This document shows, piece after piece, positions 6,257-24,629 of a DNA stretch of 38,554 nucleotides. The notes beneath the pieces were generated by a model. That model was not told the DNA's origin and searched no databases. It saw only the letters and a list, made by a program, of their open reading frames with translations. How positions within the stretch are numbered: position 1 is the first letter of the stretch; every line of letters begins with the position of its first letter. Source of the stretch: Candidatus Hinthialibacteria bacterium OLB16 (GTDB lineage Bacteria > Hinthialibacterota > Hinthialibacteria > OLB16); NCBI GenBank assembly GCA_001567115.1, contig LMZT01000071.1:1-38554 (forward strand). The letters run 5' to 3'. Made by a program: the position numbers and the translations under genes.

Positions 6257-8628
6257 TCACAACCCCAATTTCTGTTTGATGGCTGGGAGTTCCCGGGAGA
6301 TTTCACCCTCGAGCAGATCGATCTTGGCCTGGATCATTTCTGTTCCATGTGAGAAAGAATGATCTCCTCCGAAATAGAAATCCAGGCGGATATCCTGTTC
6401 CTGCAGCGGCAGAGCTGTCTTCGCATTGTCCAGCTCATCCTTGAGAACTGCCTCCCAGCGTTTCATAAGACCCTGGGCGGATTCCCGCTCCGGCTGGGAT
6501 AACTTTTCCTTTTTGATTGCTTCCCTGAGGGAGTCACGAATCCTGCAGGACTCATAAAAATTCGCTTCGGTCCGGACAGTATGGTAGAACCAGCGGATCG
6601 GGATCTCCTCCGCAAGAAAGGTGTGGCGGTTGCGCTCGGGAACCGAGTCGGAGGCACGATCGATTTCCTCAACCGCCAGTTTCAAATTCTTTTCCATTTC
6701 ACGATACATTTCACCAAAGACCGGGACATTTCCGGTGGGCGAGGTCACAAATGTCGGGCGCAGGGCCAATCCCTCCGATTCTGTCATCTCGGCCAGAAAG
6801 AAATAGCGCCCATAGAAGACCGGGGGTAATTCAGCTTCCGGGCTGACACACATGGGCTGTGCAGGGCCGAGGTAATACGGCCCATTGTAGTAGGAGGGCA
6901 GCTCCGGAGAGAATGGGATGGCTTCCGAGACATGCGCCCAGGCTTTGCGAAGATGAGGACCCGCCTGATCTCCGGCAATCCGTGCTGCGAGCTTTTCAAG
7001 AGTTGTGTCTTTATTGGGAACCGGATCCCACCAGAAGAATCGATTGACTTCAGCCGCGCTGGTTCCATAGTTGGACCGGAAAGCCGGGAAAACCCAGGCT
7101 CCATCTGCACCGCAGGAGGCCAGTGCTTCGGCACGATCGACCCAGCGGTCCAGGCAGGGTACATGGGGCAGACGAGGGGCTTCAAACGCCAGCTCGGGTT
7201 CACTCTTCAGGAAAATTGGAATCCCCTGTTTCCGGCAGGCGGCGATCTGATTTTCCGCACGTGCTCCGGGGCCGATCAGATCGATGCTGTAATCCCACAG
7301 ATGCTTACGGACTCCCTGGCCTTTCTCGACATATTCATCCTTTTCGATTTCGGTAAAGATGGCGGTTCCCGGACCGAGTTTTTCGATCAGGCCAGCCTGG
7401 GCGGGATCGGCTGACCAGACATGCTCGGCGGAATAGGGCCAGGCGACTATCAGAGCTTCCGGATTGGCACGGCGTGCCGCTGCCGCCAGCCGGTTCAGGA
7501 GGTTGGCAACCACTGTCTCGGCTCCAAGAGGCTCGCAGCGGGAGCAGTTGGTATGCCCTTTCTTGACTCCGAATGGGCGCATGTAGCAGTGATAAAAGCC
7601 TTCACCACCGATAATGAGGGTCATCCCCGAAAGGCCTGGTGCCGATCGAAACAGCTCCTCTACACTTTCCTCCAGATATTTCTGAAACAAGGGATGTTCG
7701 GTGCACAGAACATATTCTCCATCGGCTTTCCAGGTGAGTGCCCCGCGCAAATCCGGGTATTTCTTAAATAGTGGGTCATCAGCCGGGAATTTCTGGCGAA
7801 TATCGACCAGAGTGAAAGATTTAAGGTTGTATTCAGAGGCCTGGTTGACCGCCTGGCGAAGGTTGTCGAGGGATGAAGGATCACGGCGGGACACCAGTTC
7901 GGGAATTGCATCGCTCCGGGACAAACCATACAGCTCCCGCCTCCGACAAACACAGTGTTGTAACCCATGAAAACCAGATCTTTGTTGGACCCCATCAGTG
8001 GAACCGCCCCGAGGCGTACCGCAATGCGTGGCCTGGAGGCAGATGTTCCCCGGGCCAGGATGGGAGCTTCCCGGAATCCAATCCTGTGAACCAGCTCCAC
8101 GATCCCATCCCTCAGCCCATCGATATCCTTTCCTTGAACCATGACGGAAGAAGGGCCAACTGCCAGGCTGAATGACCCTTCGGGCTGGCCGGTGTCAGAT
8201 GATTTTTCGAGCAGAATGACCTGTTTATCGCCTTGAGGAGTTTGACCGCCCCAGTCAGCCTCGATAGCCAGATCGGCTCCCATGATCCTTTTTAGAAAAT
8301 CCTGAAGATGAACGGCCATCCGTCGATTGACCTGGGAGGTGTCCGGGGAAAGTTTGATAACCCAGGTTGAATCGATCGCTGTTTCATCCGGGGAGGGAAC
8401 TGCCTTGGGATCCTGGCTGAAGCGCAGGAAGAAATCCTTCGATAAAAATGAGAATGGACTCCGGGTGTAGGCCTCCGAAAACTCGGCAGAAACTTTGGCG
8501 GCTATTTCCCCCAGGCTTTCACCTGAAGCCTTGCCTGGCTGGATCGGGGCTGAACACAAAACCAGCGCCATCATCCAGAGGAGCCAGCCGGTTGCTGATT
8601 CCGGTAAGGTGTGGGCTGTCTTTTCCAT
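6257..8628 (-). CDS. Exported glycosidase-like protein with GH20-type N-terminal domain, interrupted by a frameshift
   Basis: This is a product of about 790 residues when the frame is restored. It begins with a signal peptide (hydrophobic TGWLLWMMALVLCSA). The next roughly 150 residues (for example VNRRMAVHLQDFLKRIMG, LAVGPSSVMVQGKDIDGLRDGI) resemble the alpha/beta domain that precedes the barrel in GH20 hexosaminidases and related exported glycosidases. A long barrel-like region follows (MTLIIGGEGFYHC, ALIVAWPYS, GADGAWVFPAFR). The upstream frame reaches YNTVFVGGG and the downstream frame resumes at ELYGLSRSDAIPELV; one missing G near 7936-7945 would join them. ATG 8628 is preferred over 8658 because AGAGGGGAT precedes it. 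Specificity is unknown, and a classical GH20 Asp-Glu pair was not identified. It may be a fresh pseudogene or an assembly error. Confidence 0.65.
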
Positions 8629-8685
8629 GTGAAGGATCCCCTCTTTCGTCAGATTCATCAGGTGCCATCGACTCTTTGAGTCCTG

Positions 8686-9068: not shown

Positions 9069-9391
9069 TGACAAATCGGATCGAGCTTTTTCGCGAGGCT
9101 TTGAAATCGGATCCGGAAAACGAACTGGCTCACTTTTCACTGGCCAATGAATTACTGGAACAGGAGCTGTTTTCTGAGGCACTCGATCATTATGAAAAAT
9201 GCCTGCTGATCCGCCCCTCATGGATGCGGGTCTTTATTCAGGTCGGACGCTGCTGTTATGAACTGGGTGATTTGGAGCGGGCAGTCGATGTATTAAATCA
9301 GGCAAAGGCTGCCATTCTTCAATCCAATGATCACGAAAATCTCGATGAGGTGAATGACCTGCTGTCACGATGTGAGGAGGAAGGGGACTGA
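9068..9391 (+). CDS. Small TPR-repeat protein
   Basis: This 107-residue all-helical protein contains tandem tetratricopeptide-like repeats. SDPENELAHFSLANELLEQE (about 14-33) with LFSEALDHYEKCLLIRPSW forms one full TPR, and VFIQVGRCCYELGDLERAVDV with LNQAKAAI forms a second; a capping helix follows. TPR proteins are scaffolds for protein-protein contacts, and no enzymatic residues are expected. ATG 9068 overlaps the preceding stop, and GGAGGGAAATAG lies just upstream, so translational coupling is likely. The gene ends one base before the foldase start region, so the TPR protein and the secreted PPIase-like foldase are probably made together. No signal peptide is seen, so it should stay in the cytoplasm. 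Confidence 0.8.
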   Translation: MTNRIELFREALKSDPENELAHFSLANELLEQELFSEALDHYEKCLLIRPSWMRVFIQVGRCCYELGDLERAVDVLNQAKAAILQSNDHENLDEVNDLLSRCEEEGD

Positions 9392-9392
9392 A

Positions 9393-11144
9393 ATGCGAAA
9401 ACTGTGGTTCATTTTGGTATTCATGCAAGTCTGTGGAATTGGCTGGTGCCAGGCCCAGTCCCCGGAAGATGGCCCTGACAAGGTTGTCGCTGAATGTGAC
9501 GGAGAGGTTATCCGAAAGATCGACCTGGATGTCGCCAGGCCGACCCTTCCTGCCGGTGCTACCGATGAGTTTATCATCGAGCAGCTGGCACGGAACCTTC
9601 TGGGCCAGAAAAAAGCGCTCCAGGCCGGAATTGACCAGGAGCCGGATATCAAATGGAGGCTGTGGGCGATCGGAATGAATGCCGCCAGCAGAGATCTTTT
9701 CGAACGCCAGATTATTGCTGGAATCAACCCCTCCGACGAAGAAGTCAAAAAGGCTTATCAGGAACGTATTACGAACTATGTGGTTCCTGGCTCCTTCAGT
9801 TTTCGCTACATCTTTGGGGACACCACCGAATGCACCAGTAAAGAACAGGTCGCCGAAGTTCGCAAAAAAATCGATCAGGCTCATCAGGAACTGCTCAAAC
9901 CGCTTGGCCAGAATGCAGCGCCACCCTGGATTGTCGCGGTGACTCATTTCAACGAAGTCGCTGGAAAATATTCGGATGTCCGGGGAGATCCCACCCGCAT
10001 TGCGGGTCCATTCACTCATAAAGAACCTCTCCAGCCGGTCATCAAAAAGATGGCTTTAAGCTTGGTACCGGGAGAAATGAGTGAGGTTTTCTCGACCCGG
10101 TATGGTTATGAAATCATCCGCCTGGAAACCCGCATCGAAGATGCAACAACCGAATTTGACACGGTAAAGGATACCCTTCGCCAGGAGGTGCTCCGGTCTC
10201 AGCAGAACCAGAAAGCGAAGGACTACATCCAGAAACTCAAGGATGACACAAGCCGTTATGAAATTTATGAGGATCGATTCGCTCAGATCCTGCCGGGGGC
10301 GCATTTTGAGGTCCCCTCGACGACTGCGGCTATCCGGGTTGGCAGGAAACTTTATCCTCCGGGAGATATTGAGGATTACCTGAAGAACCTTTACCGGAAA
10401 GAATGGGTCCGCGCACGAGAGAAAAAAGAGGCAATGAATCTTGCCTGGCAGGCCTTCATTTTACCCCAGCTGCTGCATGAAGAAGCGGAAAAAGCAGGAT
10501 ATACCCGGGAGGCAACAGAGCAGGCACGGATTCGCATCGAGAAAGCTTCCTTCCTTACCAATGCCCTTTTACGCAAAGAAACGGAGAGGCTGGCCGGGGA
10601 GCTTCCAAAGCCCACGACAGATGAGATCGAGGACCTTTATGTCCTTCAAAGTGACAAGCATCGTGTTGCTGCCCAGTACCAGATGACTGTTATCACTCAC
10701 CCCATCGACGAGCTCAAAAACCGCAGCTCAAACCCGGCACGAAATGAATTTCTGTATCGTGAAGGTGAAAAACGGCTTTCAGATATCCTTGCCTCACTGA
10801 TTGCGGGCGCCTCCCCTGATCAGGCTGTTAAGGCAACTCAAAGTGAGAAGACACCTCTGAATAAAGATGTTCGGTGGATCTCAAAAGGCCTCGAATTTCA
10901 GGAAGAAACCTGGTCAAAGCTCGTCAGCTGGCCTGTCGGACAGTGGTACTCCCAACCCATCCGAACTGAAAAAGGGGTTGTCATTGTTCAAGTGCTGGAT
11001 ATGGCGCCCGAGCGCACAAAACCTCTGAGTGAGGTTCGGTCTCAGCTTGAACGAGAATTGAAAAACAGCACTACCCGGGAAATCTTCAGCCGACAGGCCA
11101 GTCAGATGCTGGATGAAGTTCGGGCCTCTCTGAAGATGAAATAG
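9393..11144 (+). CDS. SurA/PpiC-like peptidyl-prolyl isomerase (periplasmic foldase)
   Basis: This is a 583-residue exported protein. A signal peptide (MRKLWFILVFMQVCGIGWCQAQ) is followed by a SurA-type chaperone segment opening with VVAECDGEVIRKIDLD. The first parvulin-like domain includes FSFRYIFGDT and FNEVAGKYSDVRGD and ends with the strand GYEIIRLETRIED (about 130-255). A helical linker leads to a second parvulin-like domain (QMTVITHPIDEL, VRWISKGLEFQEETWSKL, PIRTEKGVVIVQVLDMAPE, about 430-555). Parvulins interconvert prolyl cis/trans bonds and assist outer-membrane or secreted protein folding. The start is ATG 9393, two bases after the TPR stop, with GAGGAAGGGG as ribosome site. It is convergent with the sensor kinase gene downstream. 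The presence of two divergent parvulin domains suggests a chaperone role rather than strong catalysis. Confidence 0.85.
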   Translation: MRKLWFILVFMQVCGIGWCQAQSPEDGPDKVVAECDGEVIRKIDLDVARPTLPAGATDEFIIEQLARNLLGQKKALQAGIDQEPDIKWRLWAIGMNAASRDLFERQIIAGINPSDEEVKKAYQERITNYVVPGSFSFRYIFGDTTECTSKEQVAEVRKKIDQAHQELLKPLGQNAAPPWIVAVTHFNEVAGKYSDVRGDPTRIAGPFTHKEPLQPVIKKMALSLVPGEMSEVFSTRYGYEIIRLETRIEDATTEFDTVKDTLRQEVLRSQQNQKAKDYIQKLKDDTSRYEIYEDRFAQILPGAHFEVPSTTAAIRVGRKLYPPGDIEDYLKNLYRKEWVRAREKKEAMNLAWQAFILPQLLHEEAEKAGYTREATEQARIRIEKASFLTNALLRKETERLAGELPKPTTDEIEDLYVLQSDKHRVAAQYQMTVITHPIDELKNRSSNPARNEFLYREGEKRLSDILASLIAGASPDQAVKATQSEKTPLNKDVRWISKGLEFQEETWSKLVSWPVGQWYSQPIRTEKGVVIVQVLDMAPERTKPLSEVRSQLERELKNSTTREIFSRQASQMLDEVRASLKMK

Positions 11145-11190: not shown

Positions 11191-12519
11191 TCATGGCTTT
11201 CGTTGCTCCTCAAGGGCAAAGAGTGCCTGTTTTTCATCCTCTTCAATAGAAACCATGTCCTGGTCCCGAAGATAAATCGTGGTTTCAACAGCCTGAAGCG
11301 ATTGCAGCTTGCGGATCACTTCAGTGATGCGCAGTGCCATATCCCGGATGACTTCAAGAGAATGTTTCTGGGGGCTTGATTCGGACTGATCGAGGAGCAG
11401 CAACTCGCATTTTCCAAGCAAGGCCGCCAGAGGGTTATTGATCTGGTGGGCCAGTGTGACCACAGTCGCTTTCAGTGTCTGCAGCTTGCCGATTTCAATT
11501 TCACGATGCTGGGCTGCCTTGAGCTGCAGCTGTGCCTCTTCGAGGCGTTCCATCAGATGGTTGAATACACCTGCCAGCTCCCCGATCTCATCGTGGCTCA
11601 CAACTCGTGCACGGATTCCATAAGACTCCGGCCCGGTGATTCTTAGCATGGTGCGGTTAAGAACACCCAGCGGACGCAAGACGATATGGGTGGCCCAGGC
11701 TGCCCCGAACAGAGCCGAGAGGATGATGGCGGTCAGAAACAGGGCGGGGAACCATACCAGGCGGGTCTGCAAGCTGTCAAACAAACCCCCTTCCTGGGTC
11801 AGGCGCAGCCGGTAACTGCTGCCGGAAACCAATCCGGGAAATTGTTTTTCAAGACTGATTCCCTCTGCTGTTGATTGTGGCTGAATCGTGGCAGAAAGTT
11901 TTGTGGCTTCCTGCCGGGCATCATCCTCAACCAGAACCAGTTTGTCATTCAGGACTTGCTCAATTCCTGGAAAAAGCGAGGTCTCAACCGCGACACCGAT
12001 AAAGAGCATCCCAGGATCCGGTGTGTTTTTTAATTGCACACTCTGAGCCAGGTAGATGGCCCCATTCACCTTCATGAATCCTGAATACCCCATCCGCCCG
12101 GAATGCATCGCATACCATTCCTGCAGATGAAGCTTCAATCGGGATTGCTCTTCGGTTGCGCCACGGATGGCAATCGGATGGACCACCCCTTTTTCAATCT
12201 GAACAATGAAATCGATCCGGCTGACAGTTTCAAACCATTTTTCGAATTGGATTTCCTTCTCAAAATCGAGCAAGCTGGAAGAGCCAGGGTTCATCGATGC
12301 CTGAACATAGGCTCCAACTTTATCCAGGCTGCTGAGGCGATTCCTGATAATGGCATCCACCTCATAGAGATCATCCTCGAGTGACCGGGTCTGGATTTCT
12401 TCGATCATTGCCAGGCAACGGACGATGAAAAACGCACAAAAAACAAAAGATATTGATGAAGCCAGAAGGATAATGGCCAGGAATTTCTGCCTTAATCTGA
12501 TTTTTGTGATAAATCTCAT
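11191..12519 (-). CDS. Membrane sensor kinase-like protein with HAMP and H-box but no ATPase domain
   Basis: This 442-residue protein has the sensor half of a two-component kinase. TM1 is about 13-35, followed by an extracytoplasmic domain of about 220 residues (possibly CHASE4-like), TM2 about 256-280, HAMP about 278-332, a coiled coil, and a dimerisation helix with the phospho-acceptor motif TLAHQINNPLAALLG (His358). The paired helix continues to about 410, and after a short acidic tail the protein stops at 442. A HATPase_c domain (N, G1 and G2 boxes) should follow but is absent; only 46 bases separate its stop from the convergent foldase stop, so there is no room for it. Upstream lies the PmtA-like gene in the same orientation, 80 bases away. 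It could serve as a phospho-acceptor for another kinase, or be a decayed kinase. The start has only a weak ribosome site. Confidence 0.8.
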   Translation of the reverse strand: MRFITKIRLRQKFLAIILLASSISFVFCAFFIVRCLAMIEEIQTRSLEDDLYEVDAIIRNRLSSLDKVGAYVQASMNPGSSSLLDFEKEIQFEKWFETVSRIDFIVQIEKGVVHPIAIRGATEEQSRLKLHLQEWYAMHSGRMGYSGFMKVNGAIYLAQSVQLKNTPDPGMLFIGVAVETSLFPGIEQVLNDKLVLVEDDARQEATKLSATIQPQSTAEGISLEKQFPGLVSGSSYRLRLTQEGGLFDSLQTRLVWFPALFLTAIILSALFGAAWATHIVLRPLGVLNRTMLRITGPESYGIRARVVSHDEIGELAGVFNHLMERLEEAQLQLKAAQHREIEIGKLQTLKATVVTLAHQINNPLAALLGKCELLLLDQSESSPQKHSLEVIRDMALRITEVIRKLQSLQAVETTIYLRDQDMVSIEEDEKQALFALEEQRKP

Positions 12520-12599: not shown

Positions 12600-13229
12600 T
12601 CAGACTCTGACTGTGTACACCCAGGCTGGGGGCACATTGGCGAAAATCGGCCTTCTGGACCAGTGGTGCTCAGACAGGTGCTGATCAACAATCTGGCTGA
12701 TATTTTTCATTCTTTCCCGATCGCTCTGCTTCCCGAGATGCTGCCGGATCTCACGAATCCAGATGTACTCAAAAAAGGTGTGGCTTCCCTCAGGACTGAG
12801 GGATTCTATAAACCCTTTGACTAATTCGGAAACCAGTGGCGAGGGGAAGTTGTTCAATGGGAGGCCGGAAACGATAAAATCAAACCGGCCTTCCTCGAAA
12901 AGTTCTCTGACATCCTTCTGTACCAATCGGATCTGGTGTCGTCTGCTGCTCCAGAACATATCCTGATTCAGTCGGTTTGTCAGGTGATCTGCAAAACTGG
13001 GGTTGATTTCACACAGGGTCAACTCATCCTCGGGCTGCAGCTCACGGATGAGCGCATTCGTGACCGCTCCGGTCCCCGGGCCAGCCTCAAGGATTCGTCG
13101 AGGCCCCTGAATATCCCGGATAGGAGCGGCCAGCCCCCGGGCAAGGTGTCTGCCACTCGGAAGAATGGCTCCTGTAGTTGTAAATGTCTGAAAAAATTCG
13201 CGTATAAAAAGGGTTTTGCTGGAATCCAT
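12600..13229 (-). CDS. PmtA-like phospholipid N-methyltransferase / rRNA dimethylase-fold methyltransferase
   Basis: This 209-residue SAM-dependent methyltransferase starts FIREFFQTFTTTGAILPSGRH, the N-terminal helix and 'GA(I/V)xPSxR' motif typical of PmtA-type phosphatidylethanolamine methyltransferases and their relatives. Motif I is RILEAGPGTGAVT (about 45-57), the acidic loop is LTLCEINPSF, and the active-site region is FIVSGLPLNNFP, closely matching the 'SGLPL.NFP' of this family. It probably methylates membrane phospholipid amines, but small-molecule substrates are possible. ATG 13229 gives a family-like N terminus; upstream codons back to 13352 overlap the helicase and are not family-like. 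No strong ribosome site is close (AGGGG is about 18 bases away), so coupling to the helicase stop is likely. Confidence 0.75.
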   Translation of the reverse strand: MDSSKTLFIREFFQTFTTTGAILPSGRHLARGLAAPIRDIQGPRRILEAGPGTGAVTNALIRELQPEDELTLCEINPSFADHLTNRLNQDMFWSSRRHQIRLVQKDVRELFEEGRFDFIVSGLPLNNFPSPLVSELVKGFIESLSPEGSHTFFEYIWIREIRQHLGKQSDRERMKNISQIVDQHLSEHHWSRRPIFANVPPAWVYTVRV

Positions 13230-13272
13230 TGTTTTATTCTGGTGGTTCCCCTGCCGAAATGGCAGTTTTTTG

Positions 13273-15758
13273 TCACCCCTCGAAGCAGAACCAGAGCGCT
13301 CTGCTTTCCATTTGAACCGACCTCGACTGGCGGCCCCACACAGGATGGGCATCCTTTTTCACAGTGACAGTCCTCGATCATCCCCAGAACCGAGGACCAG
13401 ATGGAGTCCCGCAGTTCGGAAAATTTTTCGGGAGATCCCGATCCCCCCAGGATAATAATCATAGAGGTAGATCGTGGCCTTCTGAACAAAAGGGGACTTG
13501 ACCATCGGCACGCTGCGTATATCCCGTGGGTCGCACATGACATGCAGCGGAGCAGCCGATCCGAGCGCGCTCGACAGGGCACGGATGGCCCCGCCGATAT
13601 TCAGGCCCCGTGAAGCCAGGTGGCCCTCCATCCAATCTTCGAATGAAATCCAGTAGGCTTCGGTCTGGAGTTCCTGCTCGGGAAGGTGAACCTCACCGAA
13701 ACCGACATTTTCATGGGTTTCAAAACGAATTTTTTTGTACTTGGTGACCAGTGTCGTGACAGAGACCTCTCCCCAGGTGTGTGTTGCAATCCGGTCAAAC
13801 CGGACCTCTGGCTCCGGGCTGTCTCCATGGAGGTAGATGACATTGTCCACATCACGGCCGGGGGTGTTGAGCACAACATCTTTTCGATGCTCCAGGTGCT
13901 CGATAATATCATTTTTATCAGGCGCTGCTTCAGAGCGCTCTTCATCGGAACTCCCTTCCTGATTCAGGGGAACCCCAATCTCCATGTTGGAGGACAGGAC
14001 TCGGATATCGCGCTTCGTGACTGCATCGGTGTAATAATCCAGTTCGGCCAGCCGGGCATAGGCTTTGCGCCCTTCCCAATCGAGTCTTTCAATCAGATAT
14101 GGGCGAGTCTGATGAAGGTAGACAGCCTCCTCATGAATCATCTCAGGGGCGCTGGCATAATCGATTTCCCCAAGGACATTGTTATTCCGATCCATGTCGA
14201 GAATCACAAAGTTGCAGGGGTCAGCAGTCCTCAGAGACACCTCTTCGGCAGGGTAACGGTCCGAAGTGTAGTAGTAACGGCCGCCTTTCTGCCGGAGGAT
14301 TCGTTCCCCATCCAGATAATCCAGCAGGGGTTGGATTTCCAGTGCTCCGAACTTTTCATCCTTGGAAAAAGGAAGCTCAAATGCTCCACATTTCAAATGT
14401 GCAGTGAGGATAAAAAGGTTGTCCGGATTGATGATCCCATGCTCGGGGGATGCTGAAAAAAAGTATCCAGGGTGGCTGGCGAGATACTGATCGATGGCCG
14501 AACTGTTCATGACAATGACGATCAGGGAAGTGGTGGCTCTTCTGCCGGCACGGCCTCCCTGCTGCCAGGTGCTGGAAACAGTGCCGGGATACCCGGCCAG
14601 CACGGCGGCTTCGAGCTGGCCGATATCGATGCCCAGCTCGAGGGCATTGGTGCTGACGACTCCCCGGATTGTTCCGCTCTTGACTCCCCTCTCGATTTCC
14701 CGGCGTTCAAGAGGGAGGTACCCCCCGCGGTATCCCTGAATAGCCGAAGCATCCTCCCGCAATCGCCGCATCATCCGCCGCAGATAGGTCGTAATGACCT
14801 CAACCCGTTTGCGGCTGCGGGCGAACACAATGGTCTGTGCGCCCTCAACAATCAGCCGTGCAGCCACACGGCTGGCAGCCTTGATCGACGAAGCACGGAT
14901 CCCCAGCTCGGCATTGACCACCGGCGGGTTATAGAAGAGTACATGACGCTCCCCGGATGGTGCCCCGGATTTGTCAACCAGAGTGAATTGTTCGCCCACC
15001 AGTTCTTCGACCAGCTCTTTCGGGTTGGCGATTGTGGCCGAGCAGCAGATATACCTTGGCGAGACGTTGTAAAAATCACAGATGCGTTTCAGCCTGCGCA
15101 GCACATTGGCCATGTGGCTTCCGAAAATGCCCCGGTACTGGTGAACTTCATCGATCACAATCGTTTCGAGATTTTCGAAGAGTTTGATCCAGTTGGTATG
15201 GTGCGGAAGAATCCCACTGTGGAGCATGTCGGGATTTGTCACCACGATGTGGCCGCTGTTGCGGATGGCACGGCGCGCATTGGGTGGAGTGTCCCCATCG
15301 AATGTAAAGACCTTGATATCCCGCTCCAGCTTTTCCGAAAAGGAATGCAGCTCCAGCATCTGATCCTGAGAAAGAGCCTTGGTGGGAAAAATATAGAGCG
15401 CGCGGGCTTCAGGATTCAGGTAAAGCCTCTGCAGCACAGGGATATTGTAACAGAGGGTTTTCCCGCTGGCTGTGGGAGTCACCACCACCACATGTTTCCC
15501 GTCAAGGCTCTGGCAGATCGCTTCGGATTGATGGGAGTAAAGCTGCTCGATGCCCCGGTTCCTCAGGAGCTCCACCATTGACGGATCAAGCCTCTCGGGC
15601 CAGGGGCCATACATTGGCGGCCGTGGAGGAAGCACCTGCCAGTGGACAATGTTCTTGCCAAGTTTCCCCGGATCCCTGAAAAGGCTGAGAAGCTTGTCGA
15701 TGGCGGATTGCCTGGTTTCCCTCAGCTCCGGGTGGAGAGGATCTTTTTGCAGGTCCAT
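13273..15758 (-). CDS. MrfA/YprA-type DEAD/H helicase with DUF1998 cysteine-cluster C terminus, frameshifted near its end
   Basis: The restored product is about 827 residues, normal for this family of DNA helicases implicated in mitomycin-type lesion repair in Bacillus (MrfA). Walker A is TPTASGKT (about 94-101), DEVH is about 203-206, SAT is about 240-242, and motif VI is QQGGRAGRR (about 385). A long C-terminal part follows. The main frame reaches SRKIF near 13430 and then runs out at 13359; with one C fewer it continues ELRDSIWSSVLGMIEDCHCE and KGCPSCVGP, the diagnostic four-cysteine metal cluster. A second single-G change near 13276-13279 would place a stop exactly after ALVLLRG; otherwise the frame runs on to 13019. 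ATG 15758 lies 8 bases after the upstream stop. No MrfB-like exonuclease is adjacent. Confidence 0.85.
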
Positions 15759-15766
15759 TTCGTGTC

Positions 15767-18263
15767 TCAATGTGGAATCCCCAGTGAATGCATCCTCCGG
15801 TGAATCGCCTGGATGGCTTCCCGGAAAGGTTCTTCGAGGAATGCCAGGTGATCTTCCCGGCCATGATGATGCGTGACCGACCCCTTCTGCCATTGAGGGG
15901 AACGGGTATGTATAAAGTCAATGCACCCCTGAATCAACGTCAGCATGTAATTGGCCGTATCTCTGCTGAACATCCACCAGTCCTCACCCACTGCGATATA
16001 GACCGGAGAGGTATGGGCCATGATCCCGCGCTTCCAGGAATCATGATGCGGAACCGCTTCATATCCCGGACCGGAGCAGCGGGCCGCCAGCCAGGAATGG
16101 CGGTCAATGGTGACACGGGACTTCAGGTGCATCTCATGTGTTCCTGCGGATTCTTCCAGGCGATCGACCACCTCGCCATTCCTGATCAGTTCAATGCAGT
16201 GGAATGGCAGGCAGCTTCTGGCCAGAATTTCAACCTCGACTGTCCCACCGCCTCCTGGCAAACGGAGAGTGGAACCCATGGCCTGGCCTTCAACCTGAAA
16301 CCACAGGAGCGGACCACCACTGATGAAGGTATTGCCTGTTTTCAGATTCCTGCACCATGAGTCATAGGAAAATTCCTGATCTGCCGGAATATGAACATAG
16401 GTCCGGTACAGACCGATCGGAACTCCAGAGCACATCTTGTCGGTTCCTCCAACCAGCGGAAGTCGATAACCGCAAGTTCAGGTAACGATAGTATTCCTTG
16501 TGGATATATTCGCTGTGGATCAGGAATTCGACAGCATCCGCCCTTCCGGTTGCGATCAGGGCTGCCGGCTCCCCATTGGGGGTCGGTATATGGGGGATGA
16601 TGACTGTTCCGCCTTGTTTGTGGCAATCATCCGCCCAGCGGGACAGTGTGGCTTCGAGATTCCCTCCCAGGTCGGCCTCATCAGGCCCACCGGAACACCA
16701 TGGCATGATCGGCTTTTTCACCCCGAGGAGGGTCAAATGCCCCAGAAGATGCTGGCGGTTTTCCTGGGTGGCATAAACAATGGTTTCTCCATCGCGTGAG
16801 ACCGATGGCTCCCCGGTGAATTCTTCAGTGCTTGTAAAAAGATGCCCCCACTGTGATTGCAGCAGGTTGACCACATGGACTCCTTCTGCTGAAGCCTCAA
16901 GATGCGCCCCCTGGGTCGAAATGAAATGGACATGCGTGTCTCCGGAAAAATACCGGTCTTTGCGCATATCCGCGAGCCGTTTCAGCCGGAGCGTCAATTC
17001 CTGCTGGCCGGGCTCGATCTGGACCTGGGTCCGCAAAGGTTCATATTCATAACCTCTCGCCACATCCACCAGGACCTCTCCGCGGGGAAGCCAGCCCTGG
17101 CATTCTCCCTGAATGTAGGCATAGGTGATCTGTCCCAGACGGACATCCCCACCGATATCGATATGCCAGGTTCCATTGTTCGAGTTCACATGCGGGTGGT
17201 GGCCATGCGGCTGGTATGGGATGCCTTCGGGAGAGCGAAAATGAATTCGGCAGGGGATCGGCTTTCCGGTGTGGTCATCGACCACTGTTGTGTGAACCCA
17301 GTTCCTGCCTGGATCCACCAGTTCGATCTTGACACGGTCTTCGGAAATGGCGGTTCCCCTGGCCTCAACCTCACCCCAGGAAACAGCCCCGAGTTCTTCT
17401 CCGCCATGTTTGACAGTCACCCTGGCTGAAGGGTTGGCTGCGATTTCAACATAGGAGGGATGAATGGTGTGATTCATCTCCTGCCCCCAGCCTCGATGGA
17501 AATCCTCGATGAATTCGCCCTGGGATTGGCGGGGCAGGGAATAGGGGTAAGTGGCCACCCCGCGGTCGACCTCGATATCCAGATCTCCTTGCCGTTGCTG
17601 GTCTTCCGGGCGAAGCAGGCTGACCTTGACCGGCCGTCTTGCAGAACGTGTCAAAGGATCCTCATCCAGAAATCCCAGCGTAACTCCTGCGATATAAAAA
17701 CGTGGTCCTTTGGGAACAATCGTGATCTTTTTCAGCTCTTTATCCGGGTGCGGGTTAATCCAATACCAGAGGTAGAAAAATTGTGCCCAGGGATGTGTTG
17801 TTTCCAACTGCCGTACACCCGCTTCGCTCCATTTTCCCTCATAACGAGGGTGGAGGCCCTCCTGGACTTCCGGTCTGGCCAGCAATGGCCAGTGTCCCCA
17901 GGGAATCGGGATGCTCCCGATTTCGAACCTCTCCCGAATGGCAACCTCCTCCGTCTCTCCATCCTCGAATGCAAACACATACGACGCACAGGTTTCACCG
18001 ATCGGGGTCCCTCCCTGGTGGAAGTTGGAGTCAATCAACCGATGCGCAAAGGTGACTGTCCGGACTTTCATTCCGACAGTGAGCTCGGCCGGCTCCATCC
18101 GGATGGACTGGCCGAATCCAGCCATCATTCCTTTGCCATCGCCTATCTGGAAAGGAAGGCCATGATAGAGCTGATCGCCGGTCGGAAATTCCCGTTCGTC
18201 TTCGGCCGCCCTGTTGTCGATATTGGCATACAGTGCGATGGAAAGGGGCTGGTAATCTTTCAT
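15767..18263 (-). CDS. CehA/McbA-type PHP-fold metallohydrolase, interrupted by a frameshift
   Basis: The restored protein is about 831 residues. The first two-thirds are beta-rich (for example ARVTVKHGGEELGAVSW and TVVDDHTGKPIPCRIHFRSP). Then comes the PHP-like metal site RYFSGDTHVHFIS with Asp442, His444 and His446. The main frame degenerates after YYRYLNL near 16478; removing one T gives YLNCGYRLPLVGGTDKMCSG, a signature of the CehA/McbA family, and the second frame then runs to the stop at 15767. Named relatives hydrolyse carbamate pesticides, but most members in polysaccharide-rich bacteria have unknown substrates. There is no signal peptide. ATG 18263 has an ideal AAGGAG 6 bases upstream. 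The helicase start follows 8 bases after the stop, so the two are co-transcribed. Confidence 0.8.
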
Positions 18264-18468
18264 GGGATCTCCTTCCTGGCCTTGAACCAATCGAGGAATG
18301 AACTCGAGGATGACAGGAGTTTAGAGAGGGATCCCGAGCTTCTCAATGGTGCAGGCTTTATTGACAACAGTGGCAGATTCAGGGATATCTCAGCCTCTCT
18401 TATAGTTTCTTTTCGCAGTTCAGGAGGGTGATCGGGTGGCCTGTTGAGGCCCTTTCAGGTCGCCTGCA

Positions 18469-23484: not shown

Positions 23485-24240
23485 TCAAAGCCCCTTCTGC
23501 GCCAGGGAATGGGTAATCTGAGCGATGGCCTGGAGATGATCCAGGGGCTTGAAAATGTTGGCTCCCAGATGCAGTCCGATCAACTCGAAATGGTCCCCGG
23601 GCAGGGATCCGAGACATTCCCCCCAATGAGCCGATTGTTCTGTCACCTGGCCATCATTCGCCCCACGAGCCAATTTGAGGATCAGCCAGAAAGGCCACAG
23701 GATCGGGCAGGCACGAATGAATCCGCAGTGGGCCGAGAATGATTGATACAGGACATCATCACGGTCCATGATCGACTGATTGAAAGCGAGGCATTCTTTC
23801 TCCGAAAGATTCGGTATGGCTGGCAGGTGTGAACTCAGGATTCGCTTGAGAACCGGAATCTGCATGAACAGATCCGCCAGCAGAGAGCCATGATGAGGAG
23901 TGGCCAGAGTGGACAGACTGGCGATCCGCTTTTCCGGATCCAGGCGCGATGCGAGGTACCTCCCATCCAATCCACCCATGGAATGCCCGATCAGATTGAT
24001 TCGAGTCTGGCTTAACAGTGGGTGTTGCTCGATGAAGGCCCGGACCTGCCGAGCTCGAAATTCAATGGTATGAACCGGGTGCACTGCCAGAGTGAAAACT
24101 GAATTTCCAGCCTGTTCAAGAAATGGGACCACCTGCCGGAAATAGGAAAACTTCCAGGGACCGATGGAATGTTCACTGAATCCGAACAATCCATGCAGCA
24201 GGAGAAATGGATAGCGGCATTGGGCGGCTGCTTTTGTCAA
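23485..24240 (-). CDS. Triacylglycerol lipase-like alpha/beta hydrolase
   Basis: The 251-residue protein has an alpha/beta-hydrolase fold. YPFLLLHGLFGF near residue 10-21 forms the oxyanion-hole HG motif, and INLIGHSMGGLDGRY carries the nucleophile Ser87. Asp196 in RGANDGQV and His217 in PGDHFELIG complete the triad. The HGLFGF...GHSMGGLD and DGQV...DHFE spacing is that of Proteus/Pseudomonas-type lipases (family I), except that no export signal is visible, suggesting an intracellular esterase. It starts at 24240, overlapping the stop of the response-regulator gene by 4 bases (24237-24240), so the two are translationally coupled. Confidence 0.85.
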   Translation of the reverse strand: MTKAAAQCRYPFLLLHGLFGFSEHSIGPWKFSYFRQVVPFLEQAGNSVFTLAVHPVHTIEFRARQVRAFIEQHPLLSQTRINLIGHSMGGLDGRYLASRLDPEKRIASLSTLATPHHGSLLADLFMQIPVLKRILSSHLPAIPNLSEKECLAFNQSIMDRDDVLYQSFSAHCGFIRACPILWPFWLILKLARGANDGQVTEQSAHWGECLGSLPGDHFELIGLHLGANIFKPLDHLQAIAQITHSLAQKGL

Positions 24241-24629
24241 ACTTCCTCGGTCGGGATCAGCTCCCTGGCACGCTGGACAATCAGCTTCAGATCAAAAGGT
24301 TTTTCGAGGTAAAAATAAGCCCCTTTGTCATAAGACAAAACCTGATCCAGGCGGGACCCTTTGCCGGATATGATAATGACAGGAATCTCCTGTGTGTCGG
24401 GGCTGGCCGCCAGGGCATCCAATGCCTCATGGCCATCCTTTTCCGGCATGACAAGGTCCATGACAATCAACTGAGGGCGGTGCTGCTGAGCCAGCTCAAG
24501 CCCTTCACGGCCATTGACCGCAGTCAGAACTCGAAAGTTCTGTGCTTCGAGATACCCGGTCAGCATGACACGAGTCTGTTCGGAGTCATCCACAACCAGA
24601 ATGGTCGGGCGTTCAGTGGCAGGCGCCAC
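24237..24629 (-). CDS. Single-domain response regulator (CheY-like receiver)
   Basis: The 130-residue protein is a bare receiver domain: acidic pocket ILVVDDSEQTR (Asp14, Asp15), phospho-acceptor Asp58 in IVMDLVMPEKDG, the signalling Ser in VIIISGKGS and the Lys in YFYLEKPFD. There is no output domain. GTG 24629 is the likely start, with AAAGGA about 10 bases upstream. It overlaps the lipase gene by 4 bases. No kinase is adjacent; the hybrid kinase at 28534 and the ATPase-less sensor at 11191 are the other two-component genes in the window. Confidence 0.9.
   Translation of the reverse strand: MAPATERPTILVVDDSEQTRVMLTGYLEAQNFRVLTAVNGREGLELAQQHRPQLIVMDLVMPEKDGHEALDALAASPDTQEIPVIIISGKGSRLDQVLSYDKGAYFYLEKPFDLKLIVQRARELIPTEEV

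Follow-up and report, generated by a model that had tools for sequence, protein, structure and literature searches.

A gene of Candidatus Hinthialibacteria bacterium OLB16 encodes a membrane sensor that ends shortly after its phospho-acceptor domain (HisKA/DHp) and has no catalytic domain (CA, or HATPase_c). The gene is real, conserved and not broken. It lies in the window, by which we mean the whole stretch of 38,554 nucleotides of contig LMZT01000071.1 analyzed here. We propose, at a probability of about 0.5, that its product is an intact receptor whose CA-less DHp output would work as a signal-gated phosphatase of a response regulator. Surveys usually file ATPase-less HisKA proteins as incomplete kinases, and hundreds of them have been counted. 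The sensor belongs with a clade of such proteins whose conserved and probably folded C-terminal tail points to a distinct signaling-output class rather than to broken kinases; with the tail, a class known by what it lacks becomes a family united by common features. If these proteins are signal-gated phosphatases, bacteria would possess dedicated sensors for turning pathways off, and annotating them as "histidine kinase" would misstate the sign of their action.

The receptor gene and its close homologues

The features of the gene and of its two neighbors are the following.

11191 to 12519, minus strand: catalytic-domain-less sensor gene (P0001), 442 aa; open reading frame and translation, homologues in two other genera (G001 and G002)
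12415 to 12486, minus strand: putative TM1, about residues 12-35; hydrophobic stretch, helix in the model
11764 to 12414, minus strand: extracytoplasmic sensor region, residues 36-252; segment identities, 17-25% between genera
11695 to 11763, minus strand: putative TM2, about residues 253-275; hydrophobic stretch, start of the HAMP match
11536 to 11697, minus strand: HAMP domain, residues 275-328; Pfam PF00672, E 1.5e-8
11293 to 11457, minus strand: HisKA/DHp domain, residues 355-409; Pfam PF00512, E 8.6e-9, modeled as a two-helix hairpin
11434 to 11448, minus strand: H-box core His358-Gln359-Ile360-Asn361-Asn362 (HQINN); translation, alignment, comparison within the genome
11248 to 11286, minus strand: conserved C-terminal tail, residues 412-424, ETTIYLRDQDMVS; column counts in 59 relatives, AlphaFold2 models
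12600 to 13352, minus strand: methyltransferase (RrnaAD-like / class I); upstream of the sensor on the same strand, 80-base gap
9354 to 11144, plus strand: PpiC-type foldase; convergent with the sensor, near the sensor in G002 too

The first-pass annotation had read from the letters a protein with TM1, sensor, TM2, HAMP and DHp, bearing His358 and stopping at residue 442 without HATPase_c. Translation and Pfam bear out this layout, and the strand, which it had not given, is minus. HAMP and HisKA are the only Pfam matches of the 442-aa protein, with no match to HATPase_c, and according to the translation and the alignment His358 sits in LAHQINNPLAALLG. The 46 bases that it had counted between the sensor stop (11191) and the convergent foldase stop (11144) are confirmed, as is its claim that no ATPase is hidden in a nearby frame: none of the three same-strand frames beyond the sensor stop encodes a catalytic domain, all of them being broken up by stops into short peptides. 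A CHASE4-like Pfam match (E 0.0077, below the cut-off) was obtained for the sensor region of the G002 homologue only.

Full-length relatives of the sensor were found in all three sampled genera of the family and nowhere else among 14 genomes of the class. The homologues in the other two genera (E 1e-72 and 1e-49) are co-linear with the 442-aa sensor, to which the 448-aa protein of G002 is 37% identical and the 464-aa protein of G001 30% identical. Their end points differ from its own by a few residues at most, and neither contains HATPase_c; the refuting case set out by the first-pass annotation, in which all close relatives carry HATPase_c after the same helix, thus does not apply. Since full-length relatives in both other genera end at the same point, the sensor is not a chance open reading frame. 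At 57% and 49% identity, the DHp (residues 331-411) is the best-conserved region, the sensor region reaching only 25% and 17%; this indicates that the DHp is under selection.

In all three genera, a methyltransferase gene is located directly upstream of the sensor, and its product is a possible functional partner. G001 keeps this methyltransferase-sensor pair, and G002 keeps the order helicase, methyltransferase, sensor, one further gene and convergent foldase. The short form with the same neighbors, for which a search of other genomes had been suggested, is therefore present in 3/3 genera of the family. The neighbors of the sensor in the window are not signaling genes, and neither here nor in the other two genera is it linked to a gene for a kinase, hybrid kinase or regulator. 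Two potential partners named in the first-pass annotation, the hybrid kinase (28534) and the bare receiver (24240-24629), are real, but what ties them to the sensor is only the shared window. Elsewhere in the window, two pairs of overlapping minus-strand frames (6257-7924 with 7660-8658, and 15767-16435 with 16362-18290) each look, from their translations only, like a single gene split by a frameshift.

The first-pass annotation had also offered a recently truncated gene as an explanation. Truncation or assembly error is ruled out by the co-terminal relatives and by the lack of a CA domain in nearby frames, and we give it next to no weight: frame-broken kinases do occur in this assembly (C148, C6), but there the catalytic domain is found in the adjacent frame, whereas none lies beside the sensor, and relatives as distant as 30-37% identity share its end point, its lack of HATPase_c, its upstream neighbor and a tail that is a conserved family trait. 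The two frame-broken loci (G000:C148:38815-39521 and G000:C6:2667-3367) are histidine kinases with DHp and catalytic domain in different frames, either pseudogenes or assembly errors.

A tail shared by CA-less DHp proteins

The tail follows the second DHp helix, with the stop codon close behind, and in the family has the motif Y-x(n)-M-[IL]-D-[LI]. The sensor itself keeps Y416 and M422, its Asp position has diverged (DMVSI), and its stop lies 18 residues on. As had been suggested, the C terminus was modeled: AlphaFold2 predicts a beta-hairpin with strands 413-417 and 420-423 (pLDDT about 61-79). In the same model, HAMP and DHp reach a pLDDT of 83-97, the DHp forming a two-helix hairpin at 85-97, and the extracytoplasmic region is poor, mostly below 50. 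For a REC-DHp relative (REC, receiver domain) modeled with a mean pLDDT of 91, the tail hairpin comprises residues 213-217 and 220-223, at about 82-85. Foldseek comparison of the sensor model with the PDB returned histidine-kinase DHp and HAMP-DHp structures as top matches, with weak E-values for a model of which much is poor. No solved structure with the tail was found by sequence and none is apparent among the Foldseek matches.

This tail is common to 59 other DHp proteins, which were chosen by the rule that they have no CA domain and represent about 30 families of several phyla. Its columns are occupied by Tyr in 56/59, Met in 50 (Ile in 7), Asp in 53 and Leu or Ile in 56, counts biased upwards as the search model included the tail. 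The position of the stop was no search criterion, and it falls at most 25 residues after the tail in 56 of the 59; in the other three, 33 more residues, a receiver domain and 196 more residues follow. The protein with the longest extension (L038:5788-6939, also L215) has DHp and tail before these approximately 196 residues, and an overlapping bare receiver gene beside it. Every non-CA protein with a high-scoring match to the tail is separate from 83 CA-bearing kinases. With a 17-row model, such proteins were detected in 40/386 genomes, again of about 30 families, and the named tail records come from Zixibacteria, Planctomycetota, Acidobacteriota, Gemmatimonadota, Nitrospirota, Myxococcota/Deltaproteobacteria, Coatesbacteria and CSSED10-310.

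The genome of the window provides a count less affected by the search bias: among its 30 scanned DHp sites (3 CA-less, 25 CA-bearing and 2 in frame-broken kinases), the tail model is matched to its end in 3/3 CA-less and 0/25 CA-bearing DHps. The other two CA-less DHps are both REC-DHp proteins, one of 226 aa (C15) and one in a 247-residue frame (C41). The latter (G000:C41, L120:1075-1815) ends exactly at its tail, PYTSNTEILDIT, and has an odd H-box, HHFSQ, with His at +1 and Gln at +4.

Three comparisons bear on the origin of the family. Scored over DHp and tail with a model from which they had been left out, the three sensors reach 74-80 bits; the 83 CA-bearing kinases reach at most 60. In a tree built from the DHp core (67 columns, tail left out, many forks unresolved), which takes in the G001 and G002 sensors and not the window copy, the division into CA-bearing and CA-less proteins requires 5 changes, versus 43.7 in shuffles. 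The tree that holds the 59 CA-less rows together has a log-likelihood 31 units above that of the free tree and is not rejected (p-AU 0.78). A single origin of the CA-less tail family is thus favoured by the sequences, not proved.

The 59 relatives have diverse inputs: 32 contain REC, and the others GAF, PAS, HAMP or transmembrane regions. In a more tentative, wider interpretation, they might represent an ancient family of many phyla in which a DHp capped by the beta-hairpin serves as a stand-alone output, phosphatase or phosphotransferase, behind REC, GAF, PAS or HAMP-TM inputs; the sensor would have lost the kinase-only residue and kept phosphatase activity only. Genes for histidine kinases or receivers adjoin 6/43 family members, versus 5/292 control genes (p 9e-4). 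At L035, a histidine kinase gene is followed by REC-DHp, and at L242:88-2954 an apparent operon with gaps of a few bases encodes a receiver protein, a histidine kinase and a REC-DHp-REC protein. On some contigs, several genes for tail-bearing CA-less DHps lie together in a stretch of about 2 to 14 kb, three at L208 and two each at L207, L209 and L210.

H-box residues and possible outputs

In HisKA proteins, an acidic residue at His+1 is required for kinase activity, and Thr or Asn at +4 for phosphatase activity (PMC3510030). Myxococcus xanthus CrdS, which has an H-E/D-x-x-N motif, loses its kinase activity and keeps full phosphatase activity when mutated to E372Q, and its phosphatase activity depends on N375; NtrB with Gln at +1 has a kinase-negative phenotype (PMC3510030). 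In the sensor, His358 and Asn362 at +4 are kept and Gln359 replaces the acid at +1. It has a HisKA with His, without the HATPase_c and +1 acid of canonical kinases, and possesses the Thr/Asn feature of HisKA-type phosphatases. Among the three genera, Gln is also found at +1 in G002 and Glu in G001; the CA-bearing DHps of the window's genome have Glu or Asp, and one Tyr. Loss of the +1 acid is no family rule, because G001 and 52/59 members keep Glu, and phosphorylation by a kinase domain may be possible for most of them. For the sensor, Gln next to His358 argues against it.

The reading as a receptor-gated phosphatase is the best one because the sensor has no CA domain and combines Gln at +1 with Asn at +4, as the CrdS mutant does. 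A signal perceived by the extracytoplasmic domain would shift TM2 and HAMP, and this shift would rearrange a four-helix bundle presumably formed by a DHp dimer. In one of the resulting states, the DHp surface around His358 and Asn362 would bind a phosphorylated response regulator and take off its phosphate. The sensor would thus terminate the signal of a regulator that a different kinase had charged. Against this reading stands the strong boost that DHp phosphatase activity receives from the CA domain in EnvZ and NtrB (PMC3510030). The receiver domains of 32/59 relatives also count against a phosphatase, as they suit a relay equally. The natural HQINN variant permits a direct test, the kinase-only residue being already lost. 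The first-pass annotation had proposed a receptor phosphorylated in trans, a relay or a truncated gene; it mentioned neither a phosphatase gated by a signal nor Gln359, the tail and the wider family. Its first two options retain some probability, set against Gln at +1 and the lack of a CA-only partner. The excess of histidine kinase and receiver genes beside family members speaks for the phosphatase reading and also adds to the probability of these two options.

A phosphotransfer relay, in which His358 takes a phosphoryl group from one receiver, for example that of a hybrid kinase, and passes it to another under the gating of HAMP, in the manner of ChpT or Spo0B, is possible but rather unlikely. 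It would fit the conservation of His in 58/59 relatives and the many REC-DHp proteins, including the REC-DHp-REC protein encoded with a kinase and a regulator at L242. Transfer from a receiver to His should not require the +1 acid, and in P2CS, HisKA proteins that have neither HATPase nor receiver are classed as phosphotransfer proteins (PMC2716373). However, a relay does not need the phosphatase residue Asn at +4, which is kept in 51/59, and the gene lacks a linked hybrid kinase or regulator here as in the two other genera.

Less probable still is a receptor phosphorylated in trans, or a split kinase: an intact kinase would form a heterodimer with the sensor, or reach across with its catalytic domain, and phosphorylate His358. 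Split kinases exist, as CheA3/CheA4 show, and a split EnvZ works (PMC3591291); in the family, the genes of relatives at L035, L219, L222, L242 and L108 either overlap an intact kinase gene or lie directly beside one. No such gene adjoins the sensor in any of the three genera, though, and the HATPase_c matches of the 92.6% complete genome include no kinase-type CA-only protein: those without an H-box are topoisomerase-like, MutL, anti-sigma-factor-like or frame-broken kinases. The effect of Gln at +1, which abolished CrdS phosphorylation and made NtrB kinase-negative (PMC3510030), is also against it.

The DHp might finally be a phospho-independent scaffold whose only role is to dimerise, or to form a heterodimer with a kinase and alter its activity, like RetS or RocA. 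Such pseudokinase receptors are known, and in one CA-less relative the His is replaced by Asp. A pure scaffold is nevertheless quite improbable, because the almost invariant His (58/59) and Asn (51/59) of the family are needless for it.

Comparison with known systems

"HisKA without HATPase" is a recognised class. In SMART, it accounts for 1556/42417 HisKA proteins (3.66%), 711 of which have an HE/DxxN/T motif (PMC3591291). An archaeal census of such proteins proposed a phospho-acceptor or phosphatase role and noted that no receiver-containing member had been studied experimentally (PMC5847659). Like members of this class, called "possible incomplete histidine kinase" in P2CS, the sensor has sensor domains followed by a HisKA that keeps its His, and no ATPase. 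Unlike the class, which is defined by absence, the proteins described here form one clade with a hairpin tail, and the sensor has Gln at +1. Our literature search, with most subscription journals and all preprints outside its scope, found neither the tail nor the clade but just "HisKA without HATPase" as a general class; the clade defined by the tail seems not to have been reported.

Spo0B and ChpT contain a DHp-type four-helix bundle without kinase activity. They are soluble and have a degenerate CA-like domain, whereas the sensor is transmembrane and has no CA remnant. With the bifunctional kinases EnvZ, NtrB and CrdS, the sensor shares the DHp fold, the H-x-x-x-N motif and, for EnvZ, the HAMP/DHp order; it differs from them by the lack of CA and by Gln instead of Glu/Asp at +1. 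In CheA3/CheA4 of Rhodobacter sphaeroides, the phospho-acceptor is likewise apart from the catalytic domain, and CheA3 is also a phosphatase (PMC3591291). Unlike the sensor, for which no partner was found, they have a P1-type phospho-acceptor domain and a known partner. Among solved structures, LvrB of Leptospira (8vc9) is by sequence the closest to the DHp of the family, and it has the REC-DHp layout of many relatives; in contrast to the CA-less family members, it is an active kinase equipped with a CA domain (PMC13269768).
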